Below are positions 18,455 through 32,921 of a DNA stretch of 34,374 nt, piece after piece. A program made the position numbers and the translations under genes. The notes under the pieces were generated by a model that was not told the DNA's origin, made no database searches, and saw only the letters and a program-made list of their open reading frames with translations. The stretch is taken from positions 1 to 34,374 of IMG/VR virus record IMGVR_UViG_3300046467_002051; one strand, 5' to 3'. Source of the DNA: a virus. How positions within the stretch are numbered: position 1 is the first letter of the stretch; every line of letters begins with the position of its first letter.

Positions 18455-18496
18455 CCCGTAGGGCCATAAAAGGGATGCCACCTCGTATAAGTAATG
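18455..18496 (+). promoter_or_regulatory. Promoter-like block A, copy 1
   Basis: CCCGTAGGGCCATA (18455-18468), 17 nt, then TATAAG (18486-18491) and TAATG. The same arrangement occurs on the minus strand at 32921-32879. TATAAG resembles a sigma70 -10 box and lies 17 nt after GCCATA, which is not a consensus -35, suggesting an activator-dependent promoter. It faces the 125-residue gene. The predicted start site falls at or next to a 5' hairpin (18500-18521). Confidence 0.5.
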
Positions 18497-18499
18497 TGA

Positions 18500-18521
18500 G
18501 AGGGGGTAATCCCACCCCTTC
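18500..18521 (+). other. 5' leader hairpin of the 125-residue gene
   Basis: GAGGGGGT pairs with ACCCCTTC (8 bp including one G-U) across a 6-nt loop. It starts about 9 nt after the TATAAG box, so it would be at the extreme 5' end of the transcript, a place where hairpins protect phage mRNAs. The protective role is inference. Confidence 0.4.
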
Positions 18522-18561
18522 CAACCTACGGGCCACTTGAAGAGCCCCCAGGAGAACTCCC

Positions 18562-18939
18562 ATGTCCAAGTTTGATAGAGCAACTGTCCGAATGGTTTCC
18601 GATGAAGCCGAAGCCGCACTTGAAGCCGTAGCCGCTAAGTATGGAATGACCCTTTCCCGCGGAAACGGACGTTTCAGCCCCGACCGCCTCACTGTGAAGT
18701 TCGACTTCTGCATGGCAACGGGTACCGGAGCCCCTTCCGACTTCGCCCAGAAGGCTAAGATGGTCGGTCTCCCTGAGGATTGCTTCGGCAAGACCTTCAT
18801 CAGCGGCAGCACTCGCTACACCGTTACGGAGATCAACCTTCGCCGCCGTAAGTACCCCGTCAGCGGAACCGGCCCCAAGGGTGGTCGCTACAAGTTCACC
18901 GCCGATACGGTGAAGCGGGGTCTTGTTCGCGCCGCATAG
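18562..18939 (+). CDS. Unknown 125-residue protein, monocistronic
   Basis: The ATG follows AGGAG (18550-18554) at 7-nt spacing. The product is basic and soluble, with an N-terminal helix (about 12-27, SDEAEAALEAVAAKYG), a central segment GLPEDCFGKTFISGSTRYTV and a basic strand region LRRRKYPVSGTGPKGGRYKF ending in KRGLVRAA. The GKTF-x-x-x-x-x-x-YTV and RRKYPV stretch looks like a compact beta fold that I recall from hypothetical proteins of other phages, but no function is known to me. Codon use is noticeably richer in C-ending codons (ttc, gcc, cgc, gac) than the neighbouring tail genes, suggesting high expression or a different origin. It stands alone between a promoter-like block and an intrinsic terminator. 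Confidence 0.78.
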   Translation: MSKFDRATVRMVSDEAEAALEAVAAKYGMTLSRGNGRFSPDRLTVKFDFCMATGTGAPSDFAQKAKMVGLPEDCFGKTFISGSTRYTVTEINLRRRKYPVSGTGPKGGRYKFTADTVKRGLVRAA

Positions 18940-18957
18940 TAGCCCCAACTCTCAGGC

Positions 18958-18993
18958 AACCCCCTTCATCCTCTGTTGGTGAAGGGGGTTTTC
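18958..18993 (+). terminator. Intrinsic terminator after the 125-residue gene
   Basis: AACCCCCTTCA (18958-18968) pairs perfectly with TGAAGGGGGTT (18980-18990) over an 11-nt loop and runs into TTTT-CC. An 11-bp G/C-rich stem followed by T residues is a convincing rho-independent terminator. It would separate this gene from the fibre operon that starts at 19053. Confidence 0.85.
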
Positions 18994-19009
18994 CTATTCG
19001 GTGTGTTGT

Positions 19010-19029
19010 CTATCAAGTGCGAGGGGTAG
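19010..19029 (+). promoter_or_regulatory. Motif B copy 1 (CTATC-N7-AGGGGTAG)
   Basis: CTATC, exactly 7 nt, AGGGGTAG, in the 59-nt gap between the terminator and the first fibre gene. The same 13 bases with identical spacing recur at 24826-24845, upstream of the next large tail gene. Since a terminator lies just upstream, a promoter is needed here; the motif is a candidate element of a late promoter. Confidence 0.42.
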
Positions 19030-19052
19030 GATTCTATTCTGGAGTTTGATAG

Positions 19053-19871
19053 ATGGCTGCGCGCATTCAAAGCCTCAGGAATGGGGTGGACCCCATCGAT
19101 GATGCCAGCCGAAACGACCTCGTTTCGGGCGACATTGTTACGGTCACCGCACTGGATGCGGCTACAACCTACAATTGGGCGATTGTCTTCGCCCCACAAA
19201 GCCCTGCGGGTGTTCCAAGCACTGCCACCTTTACCGGTGATGTGTCGATGGTCAGTCCCGGCACCTTCACTGTGGACAACGAAGGTGCTTACCTCGTTCG
19301 CCTCATTGTGGATGCGGGGCTTGCTTCGGAAAGCACCCAATATGTAAGGCTTCGCGCCTTGACTGCTTCATTGAACCTACAGCTTGTAGCTGCGGGGGAA
19401 CGTAGGGACACCACAGGCATCATCCCTGTTGATGTGAGTATCGAAGGGTGGGCCAACGAACAGAACTTCAACCTACAAGCTCTTGAAGCTGCGGCTATCG
19501 CTGCTAAGAATCAGGTGTACCATTTTGCTTTGAACCCAACGAGTCCTTCCTATACCTATCAAGGTTGGGTGTCCGAAACTTGTGTTCTCAAGTCGGTAAC
19601 GGTGTACCTAACTTCGTTTACGGTAGGGACTTGCACCTTCGGGGTGCGAAATGTGGAAACGGGGAACATCGTATTGTCTGGTGGCGCCTTGTACGATTTG
19701 GAGACCACCCCTCTTGGAACGGTGACCAATCTTCCATTAGTAGCGGCCGGTGACCCAGATTTGGTCTTTGACCCCACATTGTCCAACGGTCAGTGGGATG
19801 TGGAACTTAATGCTGGGGCTGGGTGGGATGGTACGAACATCTTCGTTCAACTCGTGTTTGGGGTGGCCTGA
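19053..19871 (+). CDS. Short tail-fibre/adaptor protein
   Basis: A 272-residue product with GGAG (19041-19044) upstream of its ATG. Residues 1-135 are clearly paralogous to the start of the next gene: RNGVDPIDDASRNDLVSGDIVTV here versus RNGIDPELNVSRDDLEVGDIVTV there, then shared YLVRL, QYVRLRALTA, LQLVAAGE and WANEQNFNLQALE. The remaining residues, about 155-272, are a separate beta-sandwich (CVLKSVTVYLTSFTVGTCTFGV, ending NIFVQLVFGVA). The shared part most likely attaches both proteins to the same baseplate partner; this shorter one may be a short fibre or connector. TGATG couples it to the long fibre gene. Confidence 0.68.
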   Translation: MAARIQSLRNGVDPIDDASRNDLVSGDIVTVTALDAATTYNWAIVFAPQSPAGVPSTATFTGDVSMVSPGTFTVDNEGAYLVRLIVDAGLASESTQYVRLRALTASLNLQLVAAGERRDTTGIIPVDVSIEGWANEQNFNLQALEAAAIAAKNQVYHFALNPTSPSYTYQGWVSETCVLKSVTVYLTSFTVGTCTFGVRNVETGNIVLSGGALYDLETTPLGTVTNLPLVAAGDPDLVFDPTLSNGQWDVELNAGAGWDGTNIFVQLVFGVA

Positions 19872-22800
19872 TGTATGTAGCGAGTATCCGAAGCAAACGA
19901 AATGGCATCGATCCCGAGCTCAATGTAAGCCGAGATGACTTGGAAGTTGGGGACATCGTAACCGTCGAGTCTGAGAACATCGGCACCGCATATGCGTGGT
20001 CTTTGGCTTATGTCCCGGATGGAAGTACGGCTGCCTTGACCCCTCCGGGGGCGGTGATCACCAAGGGTCCGCTTTCTTTCCAAGTAGACAAGGCAGGACC
20101 GTACCTTGTACGGCTCCAGTACAGCACACCCAAGGTTGACATAGCTGCTCCCGTAGCGGTGGGCGAAAGCCTAACCATCAACGGCCTCGCTCTTAATGCC
20201 GTAGCTGTTGTCGTCGGCATCAACGAATTCGCAGTGACAGGAAGCACTACAACGGATGCTTCGGCTATTGCCAGTGCCATCAATGATGTTGCTAATGGTT
20301 GGGCCTCTTCCATCACCGCATACAATGTACCGGGTTCCAGTCAGGTATTGATGACCCCGGATGTAGATGGCTTCGCAATCGTTATACAGTCCACCACTTC
20401 AAATATGGTTGTGGGTACGGCCACTACGGAACAGTTCGTTAGACTTCGTGCACTCACCGCTTTTGGTGCCTTGCACCTTGTAGCTGCAGGGGAACAGTAC
20501 GGTGGCTCCAACCCACCCATTCCCGCAGACATCGACCCCGTGGGGTGGACAAACGAGCAGAACAACAACCTTCTCTCATTGTTGAGTCTGGTTGAAACCG
20601 TTTCTGCTTCTGGGAACATCCTTTATGTGGATCCCATTTCAGGGGACTTCCATACCATTCAAGCGGCTATCGATGATGCCGTAAGCAAAGGACCTTCAGT
20701 GCAAAGCCAATGGCTTGTGGCTGTTCGTCCGGGGGTTTACCAAGAACAACTGACCTTCGCACCCTTTGTGCATGTGGTGGGGTGGCCTGGAGTGACCGAG
20801 TTCACTTCTATCTATGCCGGTGCAGAAGTCGTTAAAGTCCAACAGACGGCTGCGATGGGTGCGCACTCAATCGCATTGCCTGTGGCTAACGAATGCCTTT
20901 TGATTGCAGGAATCCACTTTGAACGCCCCGGTGCTGGTGCATCGGATGTGATCCAAGAACAAGCCGGCAGCAGGGGGCTCACCCATCTGCACCATTGCAG
21001 ACTCACCAGTTCTGGAACTGGCGCTTGCTATCATTCAGGAGGAACCACCGGTGCCCCAACCATCTTGGAAGATTGCTACCTTGCTGCGGATTTGGGGTGG
21101 GCAGTAGCCATTGGGGAAAATTCCTACACACAACTATTTCGTTGTCGCCTGGGTGGCCAAAGCGGTATCCAGCTCGTACACAATTCGACAGGGTACCTCC
21201 GAGATTGTTGGGTTGACCCTACGGGGGCGACGGCCGTCGACATCCAATTTTCCGCAGTTGGTTCGCCGGGGTCTACTTTTGAAGCAGTCTATACGCGCTT
21301 CAAGGGGGAATGTACCGTCAACAACAGTCAAGATGGTTGCAATACCGGTGTGGAATTCCGCGGCTATTGGTGTGACTTCCAAAACCCTGGCGACATCTCG
21401 ATGGATGGAACCAACGTCGCTGCGGCTGCAAACATCCGCTTGGGTGCCAGCCAGCACGGAACCATCGAAGCGATTAACGGTGCCCTTTATGTAGCCTCGG
21501 TGCCTGCCGATACCATCTTCTACGACCACGCTTTAGTGAACCACAGTCGTATCATCGGGGTCACTGAAGTTGCGGGGGATCTCACAGCCGAAAATGTTCA
21601 AGATGCTATCGATGAAGTGTATTCGTACGCCATCGAAGCTCGCACCTTGGACGATGCTTACGATGCCGGAATGGTTGGTGGGGGTCTTGGGCGAGACATC
21701 GTTGCGGACTCCGAAGCGGTTCGCATCCTCGATGGGAACCCTCCGGGAACCGACACTCCGATTACCAGTACCGATGGGCAGCTCCAAGTTGTTTCCAAAA
21801 TAGAAATCGGTGGCATCGGCAAAGCTGAAATCAAGCTCGACCCCAACCCTTTCGGTGGGGGTGCTGAAATTACTCTCGGTGAAGCGGTCTGGGTTGGTAA
21901 TGCTCCTTATGGAAGTCCCACTTTCATTTGGGGAAACTCTACTTCTACGGCCACCTACCACAACTATGACTTGTTTCTGAGCGCACAGCCTACGGATGGT
22001 GGGGGCCAAGTCGGTTCCATCATTATGCGCGGCGGTGCGGGGCTCAATAGCGGTAAGGGGCATGATCCCACAGGCGGTGATGTTCATCTTGTTGGTGGTG
22101 ATGCACTGGGAGAGAACCTTCCAGCTTCAGGCACCGGAGCCCCAGATGGGGGAACGGTTTATATCGCCCCTGGTGGTCTTCGGTATCCAGCTACCGCAGG
22201 AAGCGTCGGAACTATCCTTTTGGGTAGGCCTGAGGATGCTACGCGAGCGGTTTTGAATGCACCCGCTGCCTATACGGTTCCTCTCGCTAACGGTATTGCA
22301 ACTTTCGGTACGGACCTTGGAGCTTTCACTATTGATTTGGTTGCTGGGTCCCTCATTGCAGATGCAATCTCCAAGCTGAACCAATCCCAATATGTGATCG
22401 CAGATGAGAGCCCTGTGGGGTTCATTCGAATCCAGAGTGCTACCAAAGGACCGTTGGCTCAAGTCTTCTACATCACAGGGGATCCCGCCATCCAAACAAA
22501 CCTTGGGAACTTTCAAGCGACCACTCAAACGAATGGCGATTGGCCTTCCCACATGGAAGTGGTTGTTTCGGCAGCCAATGAGATTTCATTCGGCCCCAAT
22601 GCTCCAGCCGGACCCCTTGTCTACAATGCGAATAGCGGTAAGCTCACCGTTCCGGGTGTGATTGATCCCACTGGGATGATCTACACCGAGTCCACACTTG
22701 CCAATCTCACATTGGCAGCCAATGGATGGACCGCAACCGACATCGGGGGCTTGTTTGTTGCCGATGGAACAGCCGGGTTGGATGACAACCATCTCTACTA

Positions 22801-23416
22801 TGTCTTCGAAGACGGCACCCCACTCAAGCTTTCGGGCGGTGGGACTGGAGATGTGGTTGGTCCGGCTTCTTCAACCCACAATGCAGTAGTTCGATTTGAT
22901 GGTGCAACGGGGAAGATCCTCAAGGACAGCAACGCCCTATTGGCCGATAACGGTGATTTGGGGCTCGTAGGTTCGCTTACGGTTGACATCGTAGTTGCGG
23001 GTACGGATGCCTTCGTCCTCCTTAACCGTTTTACCAATGCTGCCTCATCCGCAATCATCCACACAACAGGTGGGGTTCCGGATTGGACGACTGGGACACA
23101 AACGGTCAGCAGTGACTACGCAATCGCAGACGGGGGCGGCAATGAACGGTTCAAGGTTGCTGCTACAGGGGCGGTTACAATCAATACGGCCTACACCCTT
23201 CCTGTTACGGATGGTGTTGCCTCAGGGGATGTTCTAACAACGGATGGGGCAGGTACGGTGACTTGGGCGACAAGTAGCGGTGCGCTTCCAGCTCCTACGG
23301 CAGAAGGGGAAATCCTTTATGCGGTAACCGCTGCGGCCTTTGTGCGTGCAACCCCTTTAGTCAACTCTTCCGGGTTCATTCTCGTCAACTCTTCAGGAAA
23401 TATGGTGGTGGTTTAA
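19871..23416 (+). CDS. Long tail fibre/tailspike with beta-helix
   Basis: The start is the ATG at 19871, which overlaps the previous stop (TGATG) and puts the shared domain at the N-terminus; an in-frame start at 19823 is rejected. The product has 1,181 residues. Residues 1-87 and 182-240 are the anchor domain shared with the 272-residue paralogue, split here by an inserted domain at about 88-181 (ESLTINGLALNA, AIASAINDVANG). Residues about 248-560 look like a pectate-lyase-type right-handed beta-helix (HTIQAAIDDA, VAVRPGVYQEQL, repeated short strands and Cys). About 563-620 is the fibre motif ENVQDAIDE...LDDAYD. About 717-790 is Gly-rich. Residues about 1002-1170 carry fibre-type motifs (NAVVRFDGATGKILKDSN, GDVLTTDGAGTVTWAT). 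It ends with a tandem LVNSSG repeat. The likely role is receptor or surface-polysaccharide binding; no catalytic residues could be assigned. Confidence 0.82.
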   Translation: MYVASIRSKRNGIDPELNVSRDDLEVGDIVTVESENIGTAYAWSLAYVPDGSTAALTPPGAVITKGPLSFQVDKAGPYLVRLQYSTPKVDIAAPVAVGESLTINGLALNAVAVVVGINEFAVTGSTTTDASAIASAINDVANGWASSITAYNVPGSSQVLMTPDVDGFAIVIQSTTSNMVVGTATTEQFVRLRALTAFGALHLVAAGEQYGGSNPPIPADIDPVGWTNEQNNNLLSLLSLVETVSASGNILYVDPISGDFHTIQAAIDDAVSKGPSVQSQWLVAVRPGVYQEQLTFAPFVHVVGWPGVTEFTSIYAGAEVVKVQQTAAMGAHSIALPVANECLLIAGIHFERPGAGASDVIQEQAGSRGLTHLHHCRLTSSGTGACYHSGGTTGAPTILEDCYLAADLGWAVAIGENSYTQLFRCRLGGQSGIQLVHNSTGYLRDCWVDPTGATAVDIQFSAVGSPGSTFEAVYTRFKGECTVNNSQDGCNTGVEFRGYWCDFQNPGDISMDGTNVAAAANIRLGASQHGTIEAINGALYVASVPADTIFYDHALVNHSRIIGVTEVAGDLTAENVQDAIDEVYSYAIEARTLDDAYDAGMVGGGLGRDIVADSEAVRILDGNPPGTDTPITSTDGQLQVVSKIEIGGIGKAEIKLDPNPFGGGAEITLGEAVWVGNAPYGSPTFIWGNSTSTATYHNYDLFLSAQPTDGGGQVGSIIMRGGAGLNSGKGHDPTGGDVHLVGGDALGENLPASGTGAPDGGTVYIAPGGLRYPATAGSVGTILLGRPEDATRAVLNAPAAYTVPLANGIATFGTDLGAFTIDLVAGSLIADAISKLNQSQYVIADESPVGFIRIQSATKGPLAQVFYITGDPAIQTNLGNFQATTQTNGDWPSHMEVVVSAANEISFGPNAPAGPLVYNANSGKLTVPGVIDPTGMIYTESTLANLTLAANGWTATDIGGLFVADGTAGLDDNHLYYVFEDGTPLKLSGGGTGDVVGPASSTHNAVVRFDGATGKILKDSNALLADNGDLGLVGSLTVDIVVAGTDAFVLLNRFTNAASSAIIHTTGGVPDWTTGTQTVSSDYAIADGGGNERFKVAATGAVTINTAYTLPVTDGVASGDVLTTDGAGTVTWATSSGALPAPTAEGEILYAVTAAAFVRATPLVNSSGFILVNSSGNMVVV

Positions 23417-24808
23417 ATGAGTGCTTTTCATAATCAACAGACAACAGCCGATGGCATCCACATCTTGCCGCGATACACTTTTGGCTCGGCGGCAGATATG
23501 CTCGTAGGGGTATACACCGCAGCCGATGATGGTTGTTGTATTCAAGTAGGGGCTGCGGCACCTTTCACATACTACATCTTGAAGGATTCCAGTAATTCAG
23601 GGGATCTGGCTCTCGGCTATGTGGGCATTGCCACCGGGACGGGTGACTTTGTTGGTCCCGCTGGGGCTACCGTAGGCAATGCTGTTTCCTTTGGGGATGC
23701 GACGGGGCTTGTGGGTGCGGACAGTGGAAGGGCCGCAGGCAACATTCCTTCGTCACTTCCGGTAGGGTTTGGTGAAGGTGGGACGGGGCAATCAACACAA
23801 CAAACCGCCATGGAAGCTCTTTCCCCACCAAACAAAACCACATTGTGGGTTAATTCCGAGTACACAGGAACATCCACCGGTTCCGTCAATGCTCCTTTCT
23901 CCCACATTCAGGATGCACTGACCCATATTGGACCCGCAACAACGGCTGCGGAAGAGTATGAATCTTGGGTCCTCGAAGTCGCTCCTGGTTTTTACCCCGA
24001 AAACCTCATTATCCCGGAATTGCGAACCATTGCCATCAGCAGTGTGGGAATTGTGATTATGAGCGACCACACACTTGCACCGTCACATTCCGTAACGATG
24101 AACAATACTTCCACACCCATTACCGCATTTCCCCACCTGCTTTCTTTCGTCAACATTTTCTTGACGGGATCGGTAGTTCTTCTTTCCAATGCTGCGGGGT
24201 CTATGTATGAAGTCCATTTCACAGGTTGTAACTGGGCAAACTCTGCATTTGCAGGAGCTTGCATCGACGCCACAGGTTGGCCGCAAGGCCCCGAACTTCG
24301 GTTTTTCCTCACCAAATCCCGACCCCAAAGTTCTGGGACAGACATGATTCTTTCTAACACCGCCCATCCGCAAGCTGATGTAGGACTTTCATCCGCCGTC
24401 GATTGTGATCTTTCTTCAGGAAACATCACTTTAGGAGGGTACGGGCGCCTTCAAGGTTGCCGCTTCGGTGGTGACTGCGATTTCACATGGGTTGGGGGTG
24501 CAAGCACTGGCAGCAATTTGGATCACCCTGTCGGGTTCGTTGACTGTTCGTGGGACAATCCCGCCACGCATACTATCAAGTGTCATGGTGTCGGGGACTT
24601 CCGTGTGGACTCTATGACTTATCGTTCAACGGAGGGGATTCTCTTTGCAGGATCTGCCGCTTTTACAGCGGACCCTTACAGGGGCTTGTCGAACCCTTAT
24701 TTCCCCTATGGGGGGCAATGGGTTGGCGGCGGACAGCCCGACCAGCGGACTGCACTCGACCGCTTGGCTTCGGCGGTTCAAGGACTGCTTGGCGGTCAAA
24801 TCCCATAG
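23417..24808 (+). CDS. Second tail fibre with beta-helix domain
   Basis: A 463-residue product whose ATG directly follows the previous TAA. The N-terminal 135 residues are Gly/Ala-rich fibre sequence ending in the common phage fibre motif GEGGTGQSTQQTAMEAL. From about residue 141 a beta-helix-like region begins (APFSHIQDALTHI, WVLEVAPGFYPENLIIP), with the same PG-F/Y-Y-x-E-x-L turn as the long fibre upstream, then strand repeats with CDLSSGNITLGGYGRLQGCRF. The C-terminus has an aromatic/Gly-rich patch (NPYFPYGGQWVGGG) and a short helix. Fibre identity is well supported; whether the helix cleaves polysaccharide or only binds it cannot be told. Confidence 0.76.
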   Translation: MSAFHNQQTTADGIHILPRYTFGSAADMLVGVYTAADDGCCIQVGAAAPFTYYILKDSSNSGDLALGYVGIATGTGDFVGPAGATVGNAVSFGDATGLVGADSGRAAGNIPSSLPVGFGEGGTGQSTQQTAMEALSPPNKTTLWVNSEYTGTSTGSVNAPFSHIQDALTHIGPATTAAEEYESWVLEVAPGFYPENLIIPELRTIAISSVGIVIMSDHTLAPSHSVTMNNTSTPITAFPHLLSFVNIFLTGSVVLLSNAAGSMYEVHFTGCNWANSAFAGACIDATGWPQGPELRFFLTKSRPQSSGTDMILSNTAHPQADVGLSSAVDCDLSSGNITLGGYGRLQGCRFGGDCDFTWVGGASTGSNLDHPVGFVDCSWDNPATHTIKCHGVGDFRVDSMTYRSTEGILFAGSAAFTADPYRGLSNPYFPYGGQWVGGGQPDQRTALDRLASAVQGLLGGQIP

Positions 24809-24825
24809 CCTAATCGTTGGTCTCC

Positions 24826-24845
24826 CTATCGTTCTGCAGGGGTAG
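24826..24845 (+). promoter_or_regulatory. Motif B copy 2 (CTATC-N7-AGGGGTAG)
   Basis: This copy lies in the 100-nt gap before the 1,914-residue gene and matches the copy at 19010-19029 in all 13 defined bases and in the 7-nt spacing. The rest of the gap shows no terminator hairpin, but it contains a GGGAGG and a possible mini-ORF (24874-24909). Confidence 0.42.
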
Positions 24846-24873
24846 ATGTCTTTATTGTCTGTGGGAGGAAGGT

Positions 24874-24909: not shown

Positions 24910-27900
24910 TGCCTATCTTCTTACCGGGTCCCATTTTTGGGTTTGGGTATGGAGGGGATTCCTACGGTTATTCCCCTTACGGAGCTCCGGCTTTTCCGAG
25001 GCTCCCCGTTCCAACTACTGGGGGCTATGGTGGCGCTCCCTTCGGGTACTCCTCCTATGGATCGGTGGACATAACCCCACCGAGGGTTACTTCTGTTCAA
25101 TCCCTTGATGGCTTCCGTGTGGAAGTGTTCTTCAGTGAGGAGATGAATACCGCTTCCGTTTTGGCTGGTGTGTACACTTTCACAGCTACCTTCGGGGTAG
25201 CTGTGACTTCGGTTGCGGTTACTCCCGGTACTGCTGGGGCATTGGGGCTCACTTCAGCCATCGTGGAGCACACAGGCACCACTTTAGGCGGTGCCTATGT
25301 ATTGACCGCTTCTGGGCCAACGGATGCCGCCGGGAACCCTTTAGGGCCTCCTCCAGTCAATAGTGCGGGGTTCTTGGCTTATGGGGATGTTCCTCGGGTA
25401 GAAGCGGTGCTCCCAACCCCTGATGATGGTCGAACCGTAGAAGCGCACTTCTTCCGTTCTACGGGGGCTGCTACTCAAGATATGCTGCCCGAAGCTGAGT
25501 ACACTCCTGGTATCGACGACCCTTCTTCCTACTCCATTTCCACAAGCTATCCGGTAGCCCCAACCCTCAACTCTGCCGAGCTTCAAGCCCCACCCAATAA
25601 TTCTATCGTGCTTCTGGATGTCCACCCAATGACATCCACTTCCTATGACTTGTTGGTTGGTCCTTCGGAAGCCTTTTCCTACTCTGGAAATGTCCTTCCT
25701 TCCGCAGACCCAGACATTACGGCAATTGAAGAAGGGGTTGGTTCAAGCAGTCCTTCATCGGCAGGTTTGCTGTTGTCCAAAGCGGGAGGGGATTCCTATG
25801 GCTGGATTTTTGGGGATTCTTCCGGGCGATTAGTTCCGAACACTTCCTTCCGTTCCGCTTGGACCTTTGATGTTTCCACTGCGGTAATAGCTCCCCCCAT
25901 TGTGGGGGCGCCCACTGCGGTTTTCGCCGTTTGTGATGGCGGGGTGCAGATTAACATCCTTCTCAACGACTTGGCTGGAACCAAGGTGATCGACGTGATG
26001 AGTCCCGGTCTCATCGCACAAGCTCCGGCAGAATGGGATAGTGGACCCCATACCCTTTCCTTGATCCGCAACATCAAGGGTGGGTTTTATTCCGTACTGC
26101 TTGATGGAACACCCCTTCTGTCATTCCTCGCGGGGGCTGCTCTTGGTCCCCCTATATTCCCCGTCGGAGCTCCGACGGGGAATTCCCTGATCCTTCCTGC
26201 GGCCGGTTCCTCGATCAGTCTCTTCAAGGTTCAAAAGGTGAACCTCACCGCTTCGGATACGGTGTTCACGACGGCGTGGAACTTCGTTCATGGTGTTGTG
26301 TCCAGCTTCACAGGATCGGCCGTTCTTACTCGGGACAATCTGTATACCGATAGGGGGCCGCTTGTTCGAGGCTGGGGAGATGCCACACCTGCCAAGAAGG
26401 AAGATGTATCCATTGAATTGAACGGGGTGGGGGTAGCCGTCAAGAAGGTAAATCCCTACCACGGCCAGATCTTCCCTGAAATACCGATTCCCCTTACGGA
26501 AAAGCCTTCTACGGCTGTTGGAACCATAGGGATCGGCCCCGCACAACCCTTGGTCGGAGCCATTGTTACCGTAAACGGTGTCTCCCTTCAGGAAGGTGCG
26601 GTCGTTGGGTGGGCTAATGGGGCAGACATCTATGCCACTGCCGCAGCTTTAGGTGCAGCCATCGCAACCCATTGTGGGGTGGCGGTGGATGTAATGGGTT
26701 CCTTGCTCGAGCTTTCGGCTCTCACCGTAGGGATTGCAGGGAACAGTATCGGCCTGGCAAATACGAGTGGCGATACCAACATTGCCATTTCAGGGGCGAC
26801 CTTGAGTGGTGGCATCAATGAGATGGCGGTCTCGACAGACTACATCTGGTTTGCCAACCCGCCATTGGAATTTGCGGGTCTCAACACTATGGGGCTCACC
26901 CTAAACAAGTGGGATCGGGCTGTAGGGCATACGGCACCACCTGTTTCTCCTACGATGATGGGTCCGGGAACTCCCAATATGGGGCGTTTTCCTATGGGGT
27001 TGTTGCTTGCCCCGATGGAACGAAAGTCGCCCATCAAAATCGGACATCGCTATCACGGTCTTCAAAGGGACTATTCTGCCCTTCTTAACGAACCTACGAG
27101 CCTCCTGCTCAACATAAATCCCCATTCAGTTTCTCTTGGGGGGGTGTCTGCGACCGCTATTGAGGAACGGGGATACTTTTCTGGGGATGTAGATCCCGTA
27201 CTGCAAGCCGGTTTCCCCTGGGTGGCTGAAGGGGTTGTACAAGGGGAGCTGGTTACTTCTGGGTGGACCCTTACAGATGCGACCTCAGGTTCCTACGACA
27301 TCGGATTTCCTGCGCTGTATTCCCGAGAAGCTGATCTCTCGTTATCGACAGAGTGTCTTTACTACACTCGCTTGCGCGTAGATTCATACACTGCGGACGG
27401 TGTTTTTACCGGCATCGGTTTCGGGGTTCACGATAACAATCATCTTGTTTTGGCAGGGTTCGTTGTCGTTGATGGGATTCGCCACCTGGGATTGCTGAAG
27501 GATGCAGAAAAAACCCATCTGGAAGAAGGGTGGGAATTAGGTCCCAAGGCGACGGCTACGGGGCTTACCACCACTACTATTTCCATTCCCCACACCGCAC
27601 TTCCGACAGGATTGCATCAAGCCTCCGGGTCTGACCTCACATGGACGAAGTTTAGGATTCCTTCAGGGGTGCAAGCAGGGGTGTATCAAATCGCAGCTTG
27701 TGGGATGGAGCTCGACACAGACGGCAATGTGGAAATCACATTGGTTTCCCCATTGGCGGTTAGTCCGACTGAGTACGGTGCGGACGTGTTCGAAGTCTTG
27801 TTCGATGTCCCATGGGATTCGGACTTCGCCACCTACCAATTACGGAGTGCCTTCCCTTCAAGCTCTGCCGAACTCTATATGGGTGGGATGCTGTCGGGGA

Positions 27901-30653
27901 TGGTGGTTTCCATCACAGAAGCTGTTCCTTACCCTGCAGACACCGCATTGGTGTTGCCTGAAGGTGATGAAGGTGTCTTCTTCTGGGGCTCCGTATCACG
28001 CTTGGCAATGTCGGTTTCTACATGGGGTTTGGCGCAATACAGTTCATCACCCCTCCGGATCCTCAATACTGTTACGGGTGTCAATGTCTTTACGGAAATG
28101 GGCAAGACCCCTCAGGAAGAGACCACCGACCCTTGGTTCATTACGGGTGGTTTCGGGTTTTCCGAAGTGGATGCGACAGGGGACACACTCCTTTTGTCCA
28201 GCACTTCCTCCACCGCTACGAGCGTACCCAATTTAGAATTTGGGTACGCTCGTATTGAGCCGTACTTGACCCCCCAAGTCACTACGGATTTGGAAGCCAC
28301 CTTCTTATTGGAAACGGCTTCTTTAGGGGCGGGTGCCGCTCAACTGCGCATCCAAGATACGGAACGTGAAGTTCGAATCGCTACTCTGCGCATCCAGCAA
28401 TACCCCCCTTCCAGCAACCCCAACACCTTGCGCGCATTGCCCGTTGTTTCCATATCCGGCTTGCAGGATCCAACAGCAGAAGGATGGACAGCGGGGGCAT
28501 CAAACGACCTGGCTATGAGCATTCGGGGTCAGCTCTTGTCGCTGGAGACCTCTTCCGGCACCCAAGGGTTTTGGTCCCAGGAAGTTGAACCCCCACCTGT
28601 TATGGATGAGGGGCTTATCACCCAAATGCGGGTTGGGGTGGAGTCCTACAGTCTGGGCAGCACCCCTTATTTGGGTGTGTTCGTAGGTGGCTCTACGGCA
28701 CATTTGGCGATCCCGTTGGTCACCCGCAATGTGTCCACCATCTTGGCAGAAATTGGAGGGGTTCCTTCCGTTGCACTGGTAGATAATGCGGGCACCTTAG
28801 TGGGGGCCTTTGCATTCGACTTTACGGATGGGGAACTCCACACCTACCGCACCTTCATCGATCCAAACGCCAACATCGTGGTGCTGAAGGTAGATGATGT
28901 GGTGCTCGGGAATGTGCCCTTCTCAGACTTTTCCGCTATCGCCAATAGCGAAATTGTATGCCAATTCGGGATTATGGGCACCGCTTCTGTGAAGTCCGTA
29001 TGGGATTCCGTAACGGCTCTTCCCCTAAGACCGGGTGGCGGTCTGAGCTCGGCTACTTTTGTTCGCACCCTTGGTATTTGGAATGGGGGTCCTGAACAGG
29101 ACATCAACAGCTACACAATTCCCCGGGAAGATGGATTAAGTGTTCCCAACTCAGATCACCAAGCCGTTTTTGTGGAAATGGATTGGCGTTCAAGCTGCCG
29201 TGTTCGAGCATACTTAGACCCTGCGTGGGGAGTGGGTTTGTATCGCCCAGATCTTCCGTTGCCTCCTTGGGCAACGGAAGACTTCGCTACGGAAACTACC
29301 GATCCTTCGGCCGCTTGGGCCAACCTCGAGTATTCACAGCTTCCCCATCAAGAAGAAGAACGGGGAATAGTTAGTTTCGGTGCCATTGACCCGCAGGGTG
29401 TATCCCAACAACGGTGGGATTCTGTTCGGTATCGAATCCGAGCTCTTCCCACCGGTTACGGAATTGCTCCCCAAGGGATGATCCTAAATCGAGCGACACC
29501 GCTTACTTCAGGGGAATTCCTTTACGACACCACACCAGAAGTGGTGACGGTTCGATCCCTGACTGCGCGCACCGTAAGTGTGTGGTCTTCAAATATGATC
29601 GCAGATCGGGTGTTCGTAGTGGTGGTGGATGGGGCGGTTATTCCTTCCACCCATTGGACCTTCCAGCACGACACTCAAATTATCGTTCTGACGGATTCCC
29701 TGCCTGAAGACCGCTATCCAGTCACTGTGACCTTTGCTGCCGGGAAGCCTGTAACCGACACCTACTTGTGTTCACAACCCATCAGTGGGTCAGTGACCCT
29801 TCTCAATGAAGGCACCCCACCGATACCGTTGTCTCGCGACAGTGCCGCTACTCGTTCCATCGTAGCGGGGTCTATCATCAATGACCCCCTTGATGTCTTA
29901 GATGATGCAGCCACACTCATCACAAATGACCCCAAGAGGACCGTAGAGTTCAGCCTTGGGCCGGATGCGTTGTATGCGGATTTGGATACTTGCGAGGTCA
30001 CCGATGGTGAGAGTGTTCATATCACCACTTTGTGTGATGCTCCCGGTCCTGGAATGGGCTTTTCAGCTCTTGAAATCGATGGGCCCTTCGTCAATAACGA
30101 GTTCACTGTTCCCGGTGGTCCTGCGGGACCGCATAAGGGTTCACCTTCTATTAAGGGTTCTACCACCCACTTCAACCCCGCCGTTATCTTTGTCGCTTCC
30201 GGTGGGGGGATCACTGGTGGGAACCTTGGTCCCGGCACCGCTATCCTCCATCCGAACCAACGCGGTCCGGCACACACACCGCCTCCGGGGGGATTCGGGA
30301 TCAATCAGGACTTCGGGATGGCCCTCGCGCTTCGGGCTGTGGTGACGGATGCGTCAGCAGATCCGGTTGTTGAACAACTCCTCAATGAAACCTTCGACTT
30401 CCCTGCTGAAGCTGACAACACCACACCTTCTGGAGTGACCCCCGCAAACGGGTACGGGGCAGCCGATGCGGTGTTGGAAGATTTTGCTCTTGTGGCTTCC
30501 CATCTTGGCCCGGCGGGTGGGTTGTCGGACTTGATTGCGAGTAAGTCTTTACTGGCGGGTGGGGCACCCTTGAATGGTGGGGAATTCACTCTTATCGGGG
30601 GAGCCTTGTTGCCGGCACCTGTGGTTACAGACTTCGTAATCCAACACCCTTGA
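24909..30653 (+). CDS. Giant tail/spike protein with Ig-like and LamG-like domains
   Basis: A 1,914-residue product. Residues about 9-52 are a Tyr/Gly-rich, low-complexity start (GFGYGGDSYGYSPYG). Residues about 54-150 match an SbsA-like (Big_5) Ig domain: PPRVTSVQSLDGFRVEVFFS, EEM, then TDAAGNPLG. A second related domain follows (about 160-275). Residues about 280-440 look LamG/concanavalin-like (HTLSLIRN, FYSVLLDGTPLLSF), and similar lectin-like segments recur near 805-890 and 1270-1340 (GELHTYRTFIDPNANIVVLK, VDDVVLG). Residues about 545-640 contain a relative of the LTING domain inserted in the long fibre. The C-terminal third is Pro/Gly-rich beta structure. The likely role is a large virion decoration or receptor-binding protein at the tail. 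The gene contains three long perfect inverted repeats. Confidence 0.78.
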   Translation: MPIFLPGPIFGFGYGGDSYGYSPYGAPAFPRLPVPTTGGYGGAPFGYSSYGSVDITPPRVTSVQSLDGFRVEVFFSEEMNTASVLAGVYTFTATFGVAVTSVAVTPGTAGALGLTSAIVEHTGTTLGGAYVLTASGPTDAAGNPLGPPPVNSAGFLAYGDVPRVEAVLPTPDDGRTVEAHFFRSTGAATQDMLPEAEYTPGIDDPSSYSISTSYPVAPTLNSAELQAPPNNSIVLLDVHPMTSTSYDLLVGPSEAFSYSGNVLPSADPDITAIEEGVGSSSPSSAGLLLSKAGGDSYGWIFGDSSGRLVPNTSFRSAWTFDVSTAVIAPPIVGAPTAVFAVCDGGVQINILLNDLAGTKVIDVMSPGLIAQAPAEWDSGPHTLSLIRNIKGGFYSVLLDGTPLLSFLAGAALGPPIFPVGAPTGNSLILPAAGSSISLFKVQKVNLTASDTVFTTAWNFVHGVVSSFTGSAVLTRDNLYTDRGPLVRGWGDATPAKKEDVSIELNGVGVAVKKVNPYHGQIFPEIPIPLTEKPSTAVGTIGIGPAQPLVGAIVTVNGVSLQEGAVVGWANGADIYATAAALGAAIATHCGVAVDVMGSLLELSALTVGIAGNSIGLANTSGDTNIAISGATLSGGINEMAVSTDYIWFANPPLEFAGLNTMGLTLNKWDRAVGHTAPPVSPTMMGPGTPNMGRFPMGLLLAPMERKSPIKIGHRYHGLQRDYSALLNEPTSLLLNINPHSVSLGGVSATAIEERGYFSGDVDPVLQAGFPWVAEGVVQGELVTSGWTLTDATSGSYDIGFPALYSREADLSLSTECLYYTRLRVDSYTADGVFTGIGFGVHDNNHLVLAGFVVVDGIRHLGLLKDAEKTHLEEGWELGPKATATGLTTTTISIPHTALPTGLHQASGSDLTWTKFRIPSGVQAGVYQIAACGMELDTDGNVEITLVSPLAVSPTEYGADVFEVLFDVPWDSDFATYQLRSAFPSSSAELYMGGMLSGMVVSITEAVPYPADTALVLPEGDEGVFFWGSVSRLAMSVSTWGLAQYSSSPLRILNTVTGVNVFTEMGKTPQEETTDPWFITGGFGFSEVDATGDTLLLSSTSSTATSVPNLEFGYARIEPYLTPQVTTDLEATFLLETASLGAGAAQLRIQDTEREVRIATLRIQQYPPSSNPNTLRALPVVSISGLQDPTAEGWTAGASNDLAMSIRGQLLSLETSSGTQGFWSQEVEPPPVMDEGLITQMRVGVESYSLGSTPYLGVFVGGSTAHLAIPLVTRNVSTILAEIGGVPSVALVDNAGTLVGAFAFDFTDGELHTYRTFIDPNANIVVLKVDDVVLGNVPFSDFSAIANSEIVCQFGIMGTASVKSVWDSVTALPLRPGGGLSSATFVRTLGIWNGGPEQDINSYTIPREDGLSVPNSDHQAVFVEMDWRSSCRVRAYLDPAWGVGLYRPDLPLPPWATEDFATETTDPSAAWANLEYSQLPHQEEERGIVSFGAIDPQGVSQQRWDSVRYRIRALPTGYGIAPQGMILNRATPLTSGEFLYDTTPEVVTVRSLTARTVSVWSSNMIADRVFVVVVDGAVIPSTHWTFQHDTQIIVLTDSLPEDRYPVTVTFAAGKPVTDTYLCSQPISGSVTLLNEGTPPIPLSRDSAATRSIVAGSIINDPLDVLDDAATLITNDPKRTVEFSLGPDALYADLDTCEVTDGESVHITTLCDAPGPGMGFSALEIDGPFVNNEFTVPGGPAGPHKGSPSIKGSTTHFNPAVIFVASGGGITGGNLGPGTAILHPNQRGPAHTPPPGGFGINQDFGMALALRAVVTDASADPVVEQLLNETFDFPAEADNTTPSGVTPANGYGAADAVLEDFALVASHLGPAGGLSDLIASKSLLAGGAPLNGGEFTLIGGALLPAPVVTDFVIQHP
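26156..26183. repeat. 28-nt perfect palindrome inside the 1,914-residue gene
   Basis: ATTCCCCGTCGGAG followed by its exact reverse complement, with no spacer (centre GGAGCTCC). It is coding, around residues 416-425. The transcript could form a long hairpin or the DNA a cruciform. Confidence 0.9.
28217..28254. repeat. 15-bp perfect inverted repeat, 8-nt loop
   Basis: TACGAGCGTACCCAA (28217-28231) and TTGGGTACGCTCGTA (28240-28254) are exact reverse complements. They lie inside the 1,914-residue gene, around residues 1103-1115. Confidence 0.9.
29252..29281. repeat. 12-bp perfect inverted repeat, 6-nt loop
   Basis: TCTTCCGTTGCC (29252-29263) and GGCAACGGAAGA (29270-29281) are exact reverse complements. 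They lie inside the 1,914-residue gene, around residues 1448-1458. Confidence 0.9.
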
Positions 30654-30705
30654 TCTGTTCGGTAATGTTTTTATTCACCTTCATAAGTAAACCTTGGAGA
30701 TAGAT

Positions 30706-31467
30706 ATGCCTGCCCTTCGTATTGCCACCATCAAGTTGGCTGCTGAACTTCCCAAAGGAAGCGCAGCGAAAATCGCGCTCTTGAAATTGCTTCGCAAGGT
30801 GGCGAACCGTCCTATGACTGAAGGTGTGAACCTCAAGGCTTATCGGGATGGTAATGCTTGGATGGGATACGTGATCGATGCGGGCGCTTCTGCAAAGGGT
30901 GCCTCCAAGTTCTACGAGATGGTTGTGAGGCCAGGTGGGATGAAAGGTTGGCAACTTGATAAGGTGTACGGAGCTCTGACTGACCGCGGCAGTGGTGCCA
31001 ATGTGCGCACACTCACCGAAGACCACGGGTCCCAGATGTCAGCTCAAGCTGCTATGGCAAAGCATATTCGCAAGCGTAAGAGCCGGGGATACACCGATGC
31101 TTTCCGTACCCGTCCTCTTGGGCAGTATCCATTGAGCTTCCGTACCGAGAGTCCCGGCTTCGGCCATGGCACACAGGAAGGGCTTTCTTGCCTTCCCGAA
31201 ATGCGGAACCTTCTCCTTCTTGTTGAAGCCGCTGTGGATGCCGCAGAAGTGTCGGATGAGATCGAATTGGTGGAACAACTCGAGGATGCTCGGGACAGCT
31301 TGAACCGATTGCAACGGTCAGATGTGAAGAATGAAGTTCAGAAGAAGCTGCGCGGCCCCATTTCAAGGCTTCGGGGACAACCTCGATGGATCAAGGAAAT
31401 GCCACGGGTTCTTCGGGAATTGCTTACGGCTCGGAACTACTTGCGCCGCATGTTGAAGCACTGCTGA
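30706..31467 (+). CDS. WGR-like domain protein
   Basis: The ATG at 30706 follows GGAGA (30696-30700); an in-frame TTG at 30694 overlaps that site and is rejected. The product has 253 residues. Residues 1-35 are a helical segment (LAAELPKGSAAKIALLKLLR). Residues about 66-133 resemble a WGR domain: ASKFYEMVV, KGWQLDKVYGALTDRGSGAN, then a helix AQAAMAKHIRKRKSRGYTDAF, matching the family layout of K-F/Y-x-x, a W-G-R-like G-x-x-G turn and a closing K-x-x-x-GY. The literal W-G-R triplet is VYG here. WGR domains bind nucleic acids or regulate PARP-type enzymes in other proteins. Residues 165-253 are charged helices. It follows the giant spike gene by 52 nt and is probably not a virion protein. The domain call is tentative. 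Confidence 0.6.
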   Translation: MPALRIATIKLAAELPKGSAAKIALLKLLRKVANRPMTEGVNLKAYRDGNAWMGYVIDAGASAKGASKFYEMVVRPGGMKGWQLDKVYGALTDRGSGANVRTLTEDHGSQMSAQAAMAKHIRKRKSRGYTDAFRTRPLGQYPLSFRTESPGFGHGTQEGLSCLPEMRNLLLLVEAAVDAAEVSDEIELVEQLEDARDSLNRLQRSDVKNEVQKKLRGPISRLRGQPRWIKEMPRVLRELLTARNYLRRMLKHC

Positions 31468-31472
31468 TTGGG

Positions 31473-31817
31473 TCAAACCCCAACATTGAAAGCTTGTACT
31501 TCAGCCCCACATTCGGGGCAGCAAGGTTCGTTCTTACTCTTAGACCAGTCGGGTTCAAGGGTGGGTTCAAGGCACGCATTCCAACCGCATCGGTCTTTGG
31601 AAGCCTCAACCTTTGTCCAATGTGAACAAGTCCCGCGAAAGGCGAACCCTTTACAGGTGCAAGTCCAACCGTATTGACAACCTTGAATGTCGCGGTCCCG
31701 GTTGTTCAACCTGCCAAAGCGCACAACATAATCGGTTCCTTTGGAACCAGATACGGTGGTAGACCAATCAAGGTTTGTGGTGCAAGTCCATGCACCCATA
31801 ATCGTTAAATCAGGCAT
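31473..31817 (-). CDS. SWIM zinc-finger protein
   Basis: A 114-residue product from the ATG at 31815-31817, preceded by AAGGAG that overlaps the stop of the upstream minus-strand gene; an in-frame TTG at 31835 is rejected. Residues 53-66 read CTCKGFAFRGTCSH, an exact SWIM motif (C-x-C-x(n)-C-x-H). A second potential metal site is C99, C100 and C103 (PCCPECGAE), with C77 and C82 between. SWIM domains bind zinc and act in DNA or protein binding, for example in SWI2/SNF2 ATPases, MuDR-type transposases and Sws1/Shu complexes. A free-standing 114-residue SWIM protein suggests a small adaptor or regulator. It is translated with the KOW-like gene and converges on the WGR-like gene with a 5-nt gap. 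Confidence 0.72.
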   Translation of the reverse strand: MPDLTIMGAWTCTTNLDWSTTVSGSKGTDYVVRFGRLNNRDRDIQGCQYGWTCTCKGFAFRGTCSHWTKVEASKDRCGWNACLEPTLEPDWSKSKNEPCCPECGAEVQAFNVGV

Positions 31818-31827
31818 CGCTATCTCC

Positions 31828-32862
31828 TTACACAAGAATGCGGATTTCAGGGTTTTGTTCTACAAGTCGATTTCGACCTCTTTCCGTAAGGGTGGCAATT
31901 ACTTCACCCCGATAGTTCAGTGCATCGGCACCATCGACAAAGCAAACTTCATTGTAGGGCCACCGAAGTTCTTCTTTCTTGGGAGCCGGAACCGCTACAG
32001 GAGCAGCTACGATGGTGGAACGGCTACCGTCCAAGCGTTCAACTTCATCAAGGGGCAACCACAGGGGTTCAGGGCTGCGTCCTCGTTGTTCTTTGACGGG
32101 GCGCGTATCGACACCGCAACGGTCACCGTTAATCCAGAACAAGGTTCCTTTGGTTCCATCTGCGATGACCCGAACCCGATGCCCCTTCTTCGGGCGAGAG
32201 GCAATAGTGGCAGTCTCCGCTGCGATGACAGCATCCCGATAAGCGGCCCAACCACCAACAGGGGTTTCATTAGGTTCCAAACCGGCAACAAGGGCTTCGC
32301 AATTGGAGATGGAAGTGTAGGTCAACTTGTTGAGGAGGGGGTCGAAGCCTTTTGGGGGTTGACCGGTAACGGCGATGCCGACGCGGTAGCCCCATTCGGT
32401 AGCCCCCATCCATCGGACGAGGCCTCGCGTTCCTACGGGAACCTTGCGACCCTTTACCACTACGACTTCACGCCCGTTCACCACTTTCTTCAGTTCTTCT
32501 TGTGCTTCCTTTTCCAAACGGCGAGCCGTATCAAGTTCTTCTCTTGCGGCACGGATGCGAGCCTTGCGGTCTTGCGCAGCCTTATATGTAGCAATGATAT
32601 GTGCAGGAGCATCAACTTCCGAAACACACCCACAACGAGAACTGAGGTTCGTCGTATAGATGGTAATGGTTTTTACCTCTTTGGATTCCTCATCCCAAAC
32701 CTTTACGAAGGTCTGGTTTTCCCAGACATCAGACATGACCCGGACACACTTGACCCAAGATTCGGTTACCACCAACCCTTTGTGGGAAACACCGTCAGGC
32801 TTCCACTCATTGGTATACCGACCGTCTGGTCCTTTCACTCGTGCAGTCCACTGGATAGCCAT
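31828..32862 (-). CDS. KOW-like domain protein with coiled coil, unknown function
   Basis: A 344-residue product, ATG at 32860-32862 with a strong GGAGG upstream. Residues 1-92 are beta-rich with a CGC pair at 77-79. Residues 93-128 form a charged coiled coil (KARIRAAREELDTARRLEKE). Two KOW-like segments follow: about 139-165 (RKVPVGTRGLVRWMGATEWG) and about 224-256 (KKGHRVRVIADGTKGTLFWI, then DRCGVDTR), each with the G-x-x-G-x-V/L core of KOW/SH3-type RNA- or ribosome-binding loops. A nucleic-acid or transcription-linked role is possible but not shown. It is the first gene of a two-gene minus-strand unit with promoter-like block A directly upstream. Confidence 0.7.
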   Translation of the reverse strand: MAIQWTARVKGPDGRYTNEWKPDGVSHKGLVVTESWVKCVRVMSDVWENQTFVKVWDEESKEVKTITIYTTNLSSRCGCVSEVDAPAHIIATYKAAQDRKARIRAAREELDTARRLEKEAQEELKKVVNGREVVVVKGRKVPVGTRGLVRWMGATEWGYRVGIAVTGQPPKGFDPLLNKLTYTSISNCEALVAGLEPNETPVGGWAAYRDAVIAAETATIASRPKKGHRVRVIADGTKGTLFWINGDRCGVDTRPVKEQRGRSPEPLWLPLDEVERLDGSRSTIVAAPVAVPAPKKEELRWPYNEVCFVDGADALNYRGEVIATLTERGRNRLVEQNPEIRILV

Positions 32863-32878
32863 GCTTTCCTCCTTCGCT

Positions 32879-32921
32879 CATTAACTAATACGAGACGGGT
32901 CCAAATCTATGGCCCTGTGGG
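32879..32921 (-). promoter_or_regulatory. Promoter-like block A, copy 2
   Basis: Read on the minus strand: CCCACAGGGCCATA, 17 nt ending CTCG, then TATTAG and TTAATG. The block matches the one at 18455-18496 in 12 of the first 14 bases, in the spacing, and in CTCGTAT-A/T-AG. The start codon of the KOW-like gene lies about 16 nt after the block, giving a very short leader. The block is probably the promoter of the minus-strand KOW/SWIM pair. Confidence 0.52.

Follow-up and report, generated by a model that had tools for sequence, protein, structure and literature searches.

Two copies of a bipartite sequence block probably represent a promoter class of a huge phage, which would serve accessory genes, be recognised in a sigma-type manner and be read in the direction of the blocks themselves; we put the probability of this reading at about two in three. 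The blocks lie in IMG/VR record IMGVR_UViG_3300046467_002051, the whole of which (34,374 bases) was analysed and is called the window here. Its last gene continues past the end of the record, and the window is a fragment of a huge phage genome. Together with a second motif found upstream of other genes, the blocks make a two-class promoter system in this phage likely. From the arrangement of these sequences, we infer the promoter role of the blocks, the factor that would read them and the timing of their use.

Two equally spaced blocks in the window

The initial annotation had proposed that the window carries two copies of a shared block, and both were found at the positions and on the strands that it gave (Table 1). 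The core GGGCCATA-N13-CTCGTATWAG occurs exactly twice in the window with equal spacing, and the longer left box CCCNNAGGGCCATA has two perfect matches, at 18455-18468 on the plus strand and 32921-32908 on the minus strand. The equal spacing that had been noted, 17 nt from GCCATA to TATWAG in both copies, was confirmed, as was the lack of TTGACA at the -35 position, where GCCATA shares two of the six letters with it. The description of both blocks as lying directly upstream of a gene stood for copy 2, whose hexamer is 22 nt from the ATG, and did not for copy 1, where the distance is 70 nt. Since the intergenic region of each block is flanked by a second gene on the opposite side, the direction of the blocks needed to be argued. 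A phage-specific multi-copy class would have several oriented copies ahead of genes; the window has two copies, both upstream and oriented, and the blocks are probably phage-specific.

Table 1 Blocks, motifs and neighbouring genes in the window
Feature	Position	Strand	Description
Block copy 1	18455..18496	+	Candidate class 1 promoter; CCCGTAGGGCCATA, N13, CTCGTATAAG, TAATG
Copy 1 -35-like box	18461..18468	+	GGGCCATA
Copy 1 -10-like box	18482..18491	+	CTCGTATAAG; TATAAG at 18486-18491
Block copy 2	32879..32921	-	Candidate class 1 promoter; CCCACAGGGCCATA, N13, CTCGTATTAG, TTAATG
Copy 2 -35-like box	32908..32915	-	GGGCCATA
Copy 2 -10-like box	32885..32894	-	CTCGTATTAG; TATTAG at 32890-32885
g9	17700..18140	-	146 aa; after g10
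g10	18147..18374	-	75 aa; diverges from g11; GGAGG ahead of ATG
g11	18562..18939	+	125 aa; no known family; first gene past copy 1
Terminator-like hairpin	18958..18990	+	Strong; closes g11 as a separate transcription unit
g18	31828..32862	-	344 aa; no known family; first gene past copy 2
g19	31473..31817	-	114 aa; cysteine-rich; after g18
g20	32982..33149	+	55 aa; basic; divergent neighbour of g18
Class 2 motif	11194..11215	+	Upstream of g5 (baseplate family)
Class 2 motif	15903..15924	+	Upstream of g7 (spanin-like)
Class 2 motif	18996..19017	+	Upstream of g12 (no known family), just past the g11 terminator
Class 2 motif	24812..24833	+	Upstream of g15 (1914 aa; conserved among relatives); motif in its TCGTTG form
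Class 2-like site	30657..30678	+	Weaker; upstream of g16 (no known family); leave-one-out rank 26 of 68706
Class 2 motif	32929..32950	+	TTTCGGTGGTCTTCCGATAGTT; precedes g20 and stands back-to-back with copy 2

Location sets the pair apart

The left box CCCNNAGGGCCATA alone is unremarkable, with three window matches at up to two mismatches against a shuffle mean of 3.86. At up to three mismatches, GGGCCATA-N13-CTCGTATWAG matched the window twice and none of 100 shuffles; the pattern was built from the same two sites on which it was scored, so this contrast mainly shows that the window holds no third or weaker copy of the core. The two copies are identical at 25 of 37 positions, a level attained somewhere at 98 internal alignment offsets of the window, and window-wide similarity therefore proves nothing.

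The location of the blocks, not raw similarity, carries the argument. Under the gene calls of this analysis, which define the divergent and upstream regions, the copies occupy 18375-18561 and 32863-32981, which are the only divergent intergenic regions of the window. None of 1500 dinucleotide shuffles of this pair of regions matched the observed score on either measure, and of 3971 random pairs of equally long window segments, 25/37 was reached by 12, the local score of 14 by 34, and both by 7. The pair ranked best of 36 intergenic pairs. It was also the best among 42 pairs of oriented upstream regions, a set from which three same-region or mirror-image pairs and the upstream regions of g21 and of gapless genes were excluded; there, 16 of 1000 shuffles equalled it. 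With two copies only and this figure of 16/1000, the corrected significance is moderate.

No convincing copy of the block turned up elsewhere. Exact scans of IMG/VR for the block and of the GTDB genomes for AGGGCCATA-N13-CTCGTATWAG gave no match in collections from which records very near the window were possibly left out. At up to three mismatches the block was absent from seven related records (three of them, G002, G006 and G007, look like the phage of LR745208.1 again) and from LR745208.1 itself, a 485-kb uncultured phage; the exact block was absent from Tunturiibacter phage Tunturi_5. The shortened form GCCATA-N13-CTCGTATWAG matched 12 IMG/VR contigs exactly once each, five of them sharing one sequence and two another, and AGGGCCATA-N12-14-CTCGTA matched once in each of 32 stretches, none of which continues as TATWAG. 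A functionless chance resemblance, picked out by eye, would fit this lack of further copies, the frequency of 25/37 identity across the window and the shuffles that yield an equally good pair. We consider it very unlikely, because three things coincide: the copies sit in the sole two divergent regions, their spacing is the same, and both point toward genes without a known family.

Genes and transcription units at the blocks

Copy 1, g11 and the hairpin behind it form a self-contained unit. The initial description of the blocks as promoter-like, and of the genes downstream as not obviously virion genes, was supported. Searches for relatives of g11 found none at the limits used, the few other matches being insignificant, and homology searches with g18 found none either; neither protein had a significant match in Pfam, NCBIfam or PDB. 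Against PHROGs, g18 gave one partial match, to phrog_37790 of no assigned function (E 4e-5, 38 residues), and its coding score was better than that of the antisense reading frame at 31741-33162. Genes g9-g14 have no counterpart at the corresponding place in relatives, where the matched stretches of the homologues of g8 and g15 are separated by 25 nt in L003, 133 nt in L006 and 202 nt in L010; g16-g20 had no match at E 1e-4 among the seven loci compared. Judging from this lack of matches and from position, g11 and g18-g19 would be non-virion genes. No signal was recognised upstream of g10, and the leader folds were not significantly better than those of shuffles. Within the window, a tRNA search, an Rfam search and a search for sigma-family proteins were all without a match.

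A second motif upstream of plus-strand genes

A separate motif, TCGKTG-N5-YCNATM (class 2), lies upstream of five plus-strand genes of the window, and its copy before g20 is 7 nt from block copy 2. Class 2 was initially spotted by eye, and the blind comparison of upstream pairs recovers two of its pairs. In leave-one-out scoring, its sites, including the weaker one before g16, ranked 6, 7, 8, 6, 26 and 6 of 68706, where rank 6 is the place immediately behind the other five sites.

In related records, the best score of the window-built class 2 matrix exceeded that of a reversed control in G001 (17.0 versus 10.9) and G003 (17.9 versus 13.6) and hardly did so in L011 and Tunturi_5, whereas the reversed control won in LR745208.1 (15.8 versus 18.7) and G005 (15.2 versus 16.8). 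Among the top 20 hits of a shorter matrix, scored with no reversed control, 5 in G003 and 8 in LR745208.1 were intergenic, above expectation, and just 2 of 20 in each lay within 150 nt of a same-strand gene; G001, G005 and Tunturi_5 showed no intergenic excess.

A broader reading, which we regard as doubtful, is a two-code system in this lineage of huge phages: TCGKTG-N5-YCNATM would be a late code shared across the lineage, class 1 would be written anew by each phage, and the private code would act as a passport or a barrier to gene exchange between huge phages. The host RNA polymerase would be used, accessory cassettes would bring their private code, and a fast-changing phage or host sigma would read it; the early or accessory code would be GGGCCATA...TATWAG in the window phage and sigma28-like in LR745208.1. 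We lowered our estimate of this reading because the reversed control of LR745208.1 outscored the real sequence with the class 2 matrix.

Proposed reading of the blocks

We propose that class 1 would serve accessory genes interspersed with the structural genes of a huge phage. Transcription would follow block orientation, from copy 1 into g11, ending at this gene's own terminator, and from copy 2 through a short leader into g18-g19, while several plus-strand genes may rely on the separate class 2 signal. With GGGCCATA at -35, CTCGTATWAG at -10 and a 17-bp spacer, recognition would be of the sigma type. Sigma factors that contact both boxes usually span a spacer of 17 bp, which makes an alternative or phage sigma the simpler reading; the reader would be the host RNA polymerase equipped with a sigma-like factor, either an alternative one or one specified by the phage, and not with housekeeping sigma70.

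The position of both copies in divergent intergenic regions would also suit an operator, at which a repressor or other regulator bound to the paired boxes controls the genes on both sides and the promoters lie elsewhere, and in copy 1 CCCGTAGGG is nearly self-complementary. The boxes are not inverted copies of one another, however, unequal boxes with a 17-bp spacer suit a promoter better, and a class 2 motif is already present on the far side of copy 2; we give this explanation little credence.

A promoter read the opposite way, into g10 and g20, perhaps by a phage RNA polymerase of the single-subunit type, appears extremely improbable. A T7-type promoter is a sequence of roughly 23 bp resembling TAATACGACTCACTATAGGGAGA, and inspection by eye revealed only the T7-promoter-like TAATACGA on the reverse strand of copy 2. 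The counterpart in copy 1 is TTATACGA, the remainder of the T7 promoter is absent after these letters in both copies, and g20 has its own class 2 motif. A PF00940 search of five related records gave no match, and the search control was likewise without a match.

To our knowledge, little is known of gene timing in huge phages without their own polymerase. If the sigma-type promoter reading is correct, each huge phage would have long, private and easily found promoter codes, and accessory and structural genes could be sorted from sequence alone. This would aid operon prediction in unannotated huge phages and the search for the sigma-like reader of each code. LR745208.1, with its 52 sigma28-like sites, and the cultured Tunturi_5, with its two classes, make the idea directly testable.

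Comparison with known promoters and related huge phages

The T4 MotA/AsiA middle promoters resemble the blocks in having a non-TTGACA box near -35 and a TATA-type -10 at phage genes, and the initial annotation had suggested a mechanism of this kind, in which a phage activator on CCCnnAGGGCC recruits host sigma70 polymerase and only the -10 hexamer is read. The absence of TTGACA, the accessory genes downstream and the reach of the longest conserved box, CCCNNAGGGCCATA, farther upstream than a normal -35 box would agree with it. The MotA box is (a/t)(a/t)(a/t)TGCTTtA, and a near-perfect sigma70 -10 lies 12+/-1 bp from it; MotA tolerates deviations from this box, whereas an excellent -10, TAtaaT, is needed by almost every T4 middle promoter (PMC2988021). 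The blocks thus differ in box letters, box-to-hexamer distance and hexamer quality: they carry CCCNNAGGGCCATA without TGCTT, the box ends 17 bp before the hexamer, and TATAAG (5/6) and TATTAG (4/6) both end in G. The MotA-type mechanism was not supported in these respects in either copy, and an activator-dependent promoter seems unlikely. The blocks also depart from housekeeping sigma70 promoters (TTGACA, 16-18 nt, TATAAT), with GCCATA at 2/6; a sigma70-type scan of the window returned four sites and neither block, under a rule that requires a final T and so excludes them.

Flagellar sigma28 (FliA) promoters, with the consensus TAAAGTTT-n11-GCCGATAA (PMC2859248, Table 1), share the sigma-type bipartite geometry, but the blocks lack GCCGATAA. 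A promoter of this type would carry TAAA-N15-GCCGATAA; the pattern TAAA-N15-[AG]CCGATA was absent from the window and occurs 49 times in LR745208.1, versus once in its reversed control.

LR745208.1, of which a literature search found no mention, carries homologues of window g4, g5, g6, g8, g15 and g21 in the same order. Like the window, it has a bipartite block with -35/-10 geometry, found phage-wide just upstream of mostly small genes: 52 exact CTAAA-N15-17-CCGATA sites form its class 1, and a start lies 14-25 nt downstream for 41 of the 51 sites with an assigned start. Copy 1, 70 nt from its start codon, is unlike most of these sites. No exact site falls in 212,430-313,903, the stretch holding the homologues of the window's structural genes, and masking left no clear second motif. 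Its letters differ from those of the blocks (CTAAAA-N15-CCGATAGGG, sigma28-like), and relative to FliA the motif TAAA-N15-RCCGATAG lacks the GTTT half of the -35 and the final A of the -10. Homology of the blocks with this motif, raised by the CTCGT before both -10 elements, was rejected by a scan with its matrix, in which 1170 and 2413 window positions outscore the blocks. Two LR745208.1 genes have a sigma region-4-like part and Tunturi_5 encodes an annotated sigma factor, gp211; a sigma region-2 family had no match in five records, and one RNA polymerase beta model had none in LR745208.1 or Tunturi_5. In two 76-kb relatives, a dyad search (38 and 15 upstream regions) gave nothing above shuffles, and pairwise upstream comparison stayed at shuffle level.

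Tunturi_5 is a more distant relative (baseplate protein 31% over 38%) and an imperfect precedent. The main text of the Tunturi paper contains none of the terms 'promoter', 'motif' and 'sigma factor'. Four of its class A sites precede genes in an opposite-strand block, containing an endolysin, between the portal and baseplate genes, and class B sites lie before structural genes and also before genes of replication and metabolism. A match of the blocks to the class B matrix was rejected (block ranks 369 and 283 of 68660). Since the matrices of the relatives miss the blocks, the similarity is one of architecture, not of sequence. Tunturi_5 differs in upstream boxes and spacing (ATAWTC-N22-TATTAG; TCATCTTTG-N13-TGTAGGTTG), yet it shares with the window phage the presence of two bipartite classes within one huge phage (A and B, 29 and 30 sites), back-to-back sites of both classes at 167248(-) and 167305(+), and a class B core, GTATTAG, that is also the core of copy 2.

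Two related blocks in the divergent intergenic regions

Both blocks lie exactly where, and on the strands that, the initial annotation described, and they share the core GGGCCATA-N13-CTCGTATWAG; CCCNNA stands before this core and T(T)AATG after it. Read along their own strand, the blocks place the -10-like hexamer 22 nt from the start of g18 and 70 nt from that of g11. The bare similarity of the pair is unremarkable: 98 offsets in the window reach 25 of 37 matches. By our gene calls, which took ribosome-binding sites into account, only g10/g11 and g18/g20 form divergent pairs in the window, and each of the two intergenic regions between them contains one copy. Shuffling of these two regions never yielded an equally good pair (0/1500), and of 3971 window-segment pairs drawn at random, 12 equalled it on one measure, 34 on the other and 7 on both. 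The block pair ranked best among 42 oriented upstream-region pairs (45 pairs from ten regions, minus three that were same-region or mirror images; the g21 upstream region was left out), with 16 of 1000 shuffles equally good. On these sequence comparisons, the resemblance is probably real, if not proven.

A strong terminator closes g11, which is therefore a unit that would need a separate promoter. On its other side, copy 2 is flanked by a different motif (class 2), and no signal was recognised for g10. A plus-strand open reading frame (31741-33162) would enclose copy 2 if it were a gene, but minus-strand g18, which has a strong ribosome-binding site, has the better coding score over the same span (0.189 versus 0.013 bits per codon).

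The window covers the whole of an IMG/VR virus record, 34,374 bases in length. Since g21, the final gene, runs past the record end and the related uncultured phage LR745208.1 measures 485 kb, the record is a fragment. LR745208.1 and IMG/VR contigs carry homologues of g4, g5, g6, g8, g15 and g21 in an unchanged order. Between the matched parts of the g8 homologue and those of the g15 homologue lie 25, 133 and 202 nt in three related loci (L003, L006 and L010, respectively), so that g9-g14 have no counterpart there; g15 is also without a match over its initial 477 to 637 residues. No match to g16-g20 was found at E 1e-4 across the seven loci compared, and no relative or family was found for g11 or g18, except one partial g18 match to a PHROG of unknown function.

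The similar starts of g12 and g13 (SLRNGVDP / SKRNGIDP ... GDIVTV) suggest duplicated genes, perhaps encoding fibres. At the starts of g6 and g14, a 30-nt stretch around the ribosome-binding site is 83% identical, the upstream gene's stop codon being directly followed by ATGAGTGCTT. The 1914-aa g15 contains an inverted repeat, nearly perfect at 94%, whose 18-nt arms are separated by 2 nt. The product of g19 is rich in cysteine (CTC...CSHW, CCPEC), a pattern that we take to resemble zinc-binding proteins; it had no significant family match.

Positions of promoter-like sites and other features
Feature	Genome	Position	Strand	Context
Block copy 1	window	18455-18496	+	upstream of g11
Block copy 2	window	32921-32879	-	upstream of g18-g19
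Class 2	window	11194	+	upstream of g5 (baseplate family)
Class 2	window	15903	+	upstream of g7 (spanin-like)
Class 2	window	18996	+	upstream of g12 (no assigned family)
Class 2	window	24812	+	upstream of g15 (large, conserved)
Class 2	window	32929	+	upstream of g20 (no assigned family)
Class 2, weaker	window	30657	+	upstream of g16 (no assigned family)
g12	window	19053-19871
g13	window	19871-23416
g6 start stretch	window	12416-12445
g14 start stretch	window	23397-23426
Inverted repeat	window	28217-28254		within g15
g19	window	31473-31817	-
Sigma region-4-like gene	LR745208.1	153904-154695	+
Sigma region-4-like gene	LR745208.1	419691-420173	-
Class A	Tunturi_5	167305		upstream of gp226
Class A	Tunturi_5	168700		upstream of gp228
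Class A	Tunturi_5	169022		upstream of gp229
Class A	Tunturi_5	170089		upstream of gp231
Class B	Tunturi_5	167248		back-to-back with class A site 167305

A second motif upstream of other plus-strand genes

The class 2 motif (TCGKTG-N5-YCNATM) was first noticed by reading the window's remaining intergenic regions. The pattern built from its sites has five plus-strand matches, all among those sites, and none on the minus strand; leave-one-out matrix ranks, in order of position, were 6, 7, 8, 6, 26 and 6 of 68706, the weaker site being the one at 26. In a blind pair comparison these sites supplied the second- and third-best pairs, and 0 of 1000 shuffles had three pairs that good. The motif is a candidate late promoter. 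A class 2-like site, TCGGTGTCTCGTCTATA, lies 35 nt before the g5 homologue of the related record G003, and others were seen by eye before this homologue in L011 and G001. In LR745208.1, the best match to a shorter matrix is intergenic, at 270697 and thus 315 nt away from a start; another match, at 313807 (-), faces a site at 313903 (+) of that genome's own class 1, the sigma28-like motif described below. When the longer matrix was used, real sequence scored below its reversed control in LR745208.1 and in the record G005, and matrix scans gave no excess in Tunturi_5, so conservation across the lineage is only suggestive.

Promoter-like motifs in two other huge phages

A blind search upstream of LR745208.1 genes for spaced word pairs returned TAAA-N16-CCGA in 26 of 410 regions, the maxima for any pair in five shuffles being 9 to 10. 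This genome has 52 exact CTAAA-N15-17-CCGATA sites (loci L047-L071), 39 of them intergenic by our gene calls; the 48 with the main spacing give the consensus CGATTTCnCTAAAAAGT...CCGTRCCGATAGGG. When starts were assigned 8-120 nt downstream, near ones being preferred, 51 sites received one, at 14-25 nt in 41. The sigma28 consensus, TAAAGTTT-n11-GCCGATAA (PMC2859248), is alike in its TAAA and GCCGATA parts and exactly equal in spacing, whereas its GTTT part and last base are absent from the LR745208.1 consensus. No exact site falls within 212,430-313,903, the stretch with structural homologues, where three one-mismatch matches all lie inside genes. Among the 51 proteins following the motif, 12 Pfam families occur, each in one protein, including HNH endonucleases, NADAR, GmrSD_N, HATPase and one Peptidase_M23, a possible enzyme of lysis or of the tail; of 39 PHROG families, the 25 listed are mainly HNH endonucleases or unnamed.

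Two LR745208.1 genes, 48% identical over their shared part, have a sigma region-4-like part above the Pfam cut-off, with one further match below it, and are candidate readers of the motif. The best solved relatives of one are sigma factors, at non-significant values (E 0.024, 0.066). Sigma region 2 was not found in LR745208.1, and one polymerase beta model likewise gave no hit.

The same spaced-word-pair method gave two bipartite promoter-like classes in the more distant Tunturi_5 (PP885688.1; loci L141-L156), described as a 309-kb myovirus (PMC11924767): class A with 29 sites and class B with 30 sites of GGGTATTAG. The genes gp226, gp228, gp229 and gp231 belong to a block on the opposite strand that lies between the portal and baseplate genes and also includes an endolysin. 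Class B sites are found before genes for replication and metabolism as well, so the class is not purely structural. The genome carries an annotated sigma factor, gp211.

Proposed mechanism and comparison with known systems

We propose that the block would act as a sigma-type promoter serving accessory cassettes, with other plus-strand genes preceded by a different signal. The 17-bp spacer and unequal boxes would suit a sigma factor touching both boxes. Sigma70 prefers T at the last hexamer position; the -10-like hexamers of both blocks end in G, which speaks for a sigma other than sigma70. According to one review (PMC13282480), jumbo phages that have no polymerase of their own frequently carry genes for sigma homologues. 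We infer, rather than observe, the identity of the factor reading the block and its timing. Judged from sequence, the pair probably forms a working promoter class peculiar to this phage.

Of more interest than the block itself is the wider pattern of private promoter codes among huge phages; no description of it was found in listings of open-licence papers or in passages on promoters from PMC7162821, PMC13282480 and PMC11924767. The initial annotation had drawn a parallel to activator-dependent middle promoters of the T4 MotA type, which is not supported: box, spacing and hexamer quality all differ from those of the T4 promoters (PMC2988021). Some activator could still exist at the blocks, by these tests not of the MotA kind. 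For the sigma-type promoter that we favour, the letters of the block are new, and the kind of promoter class is one already known.
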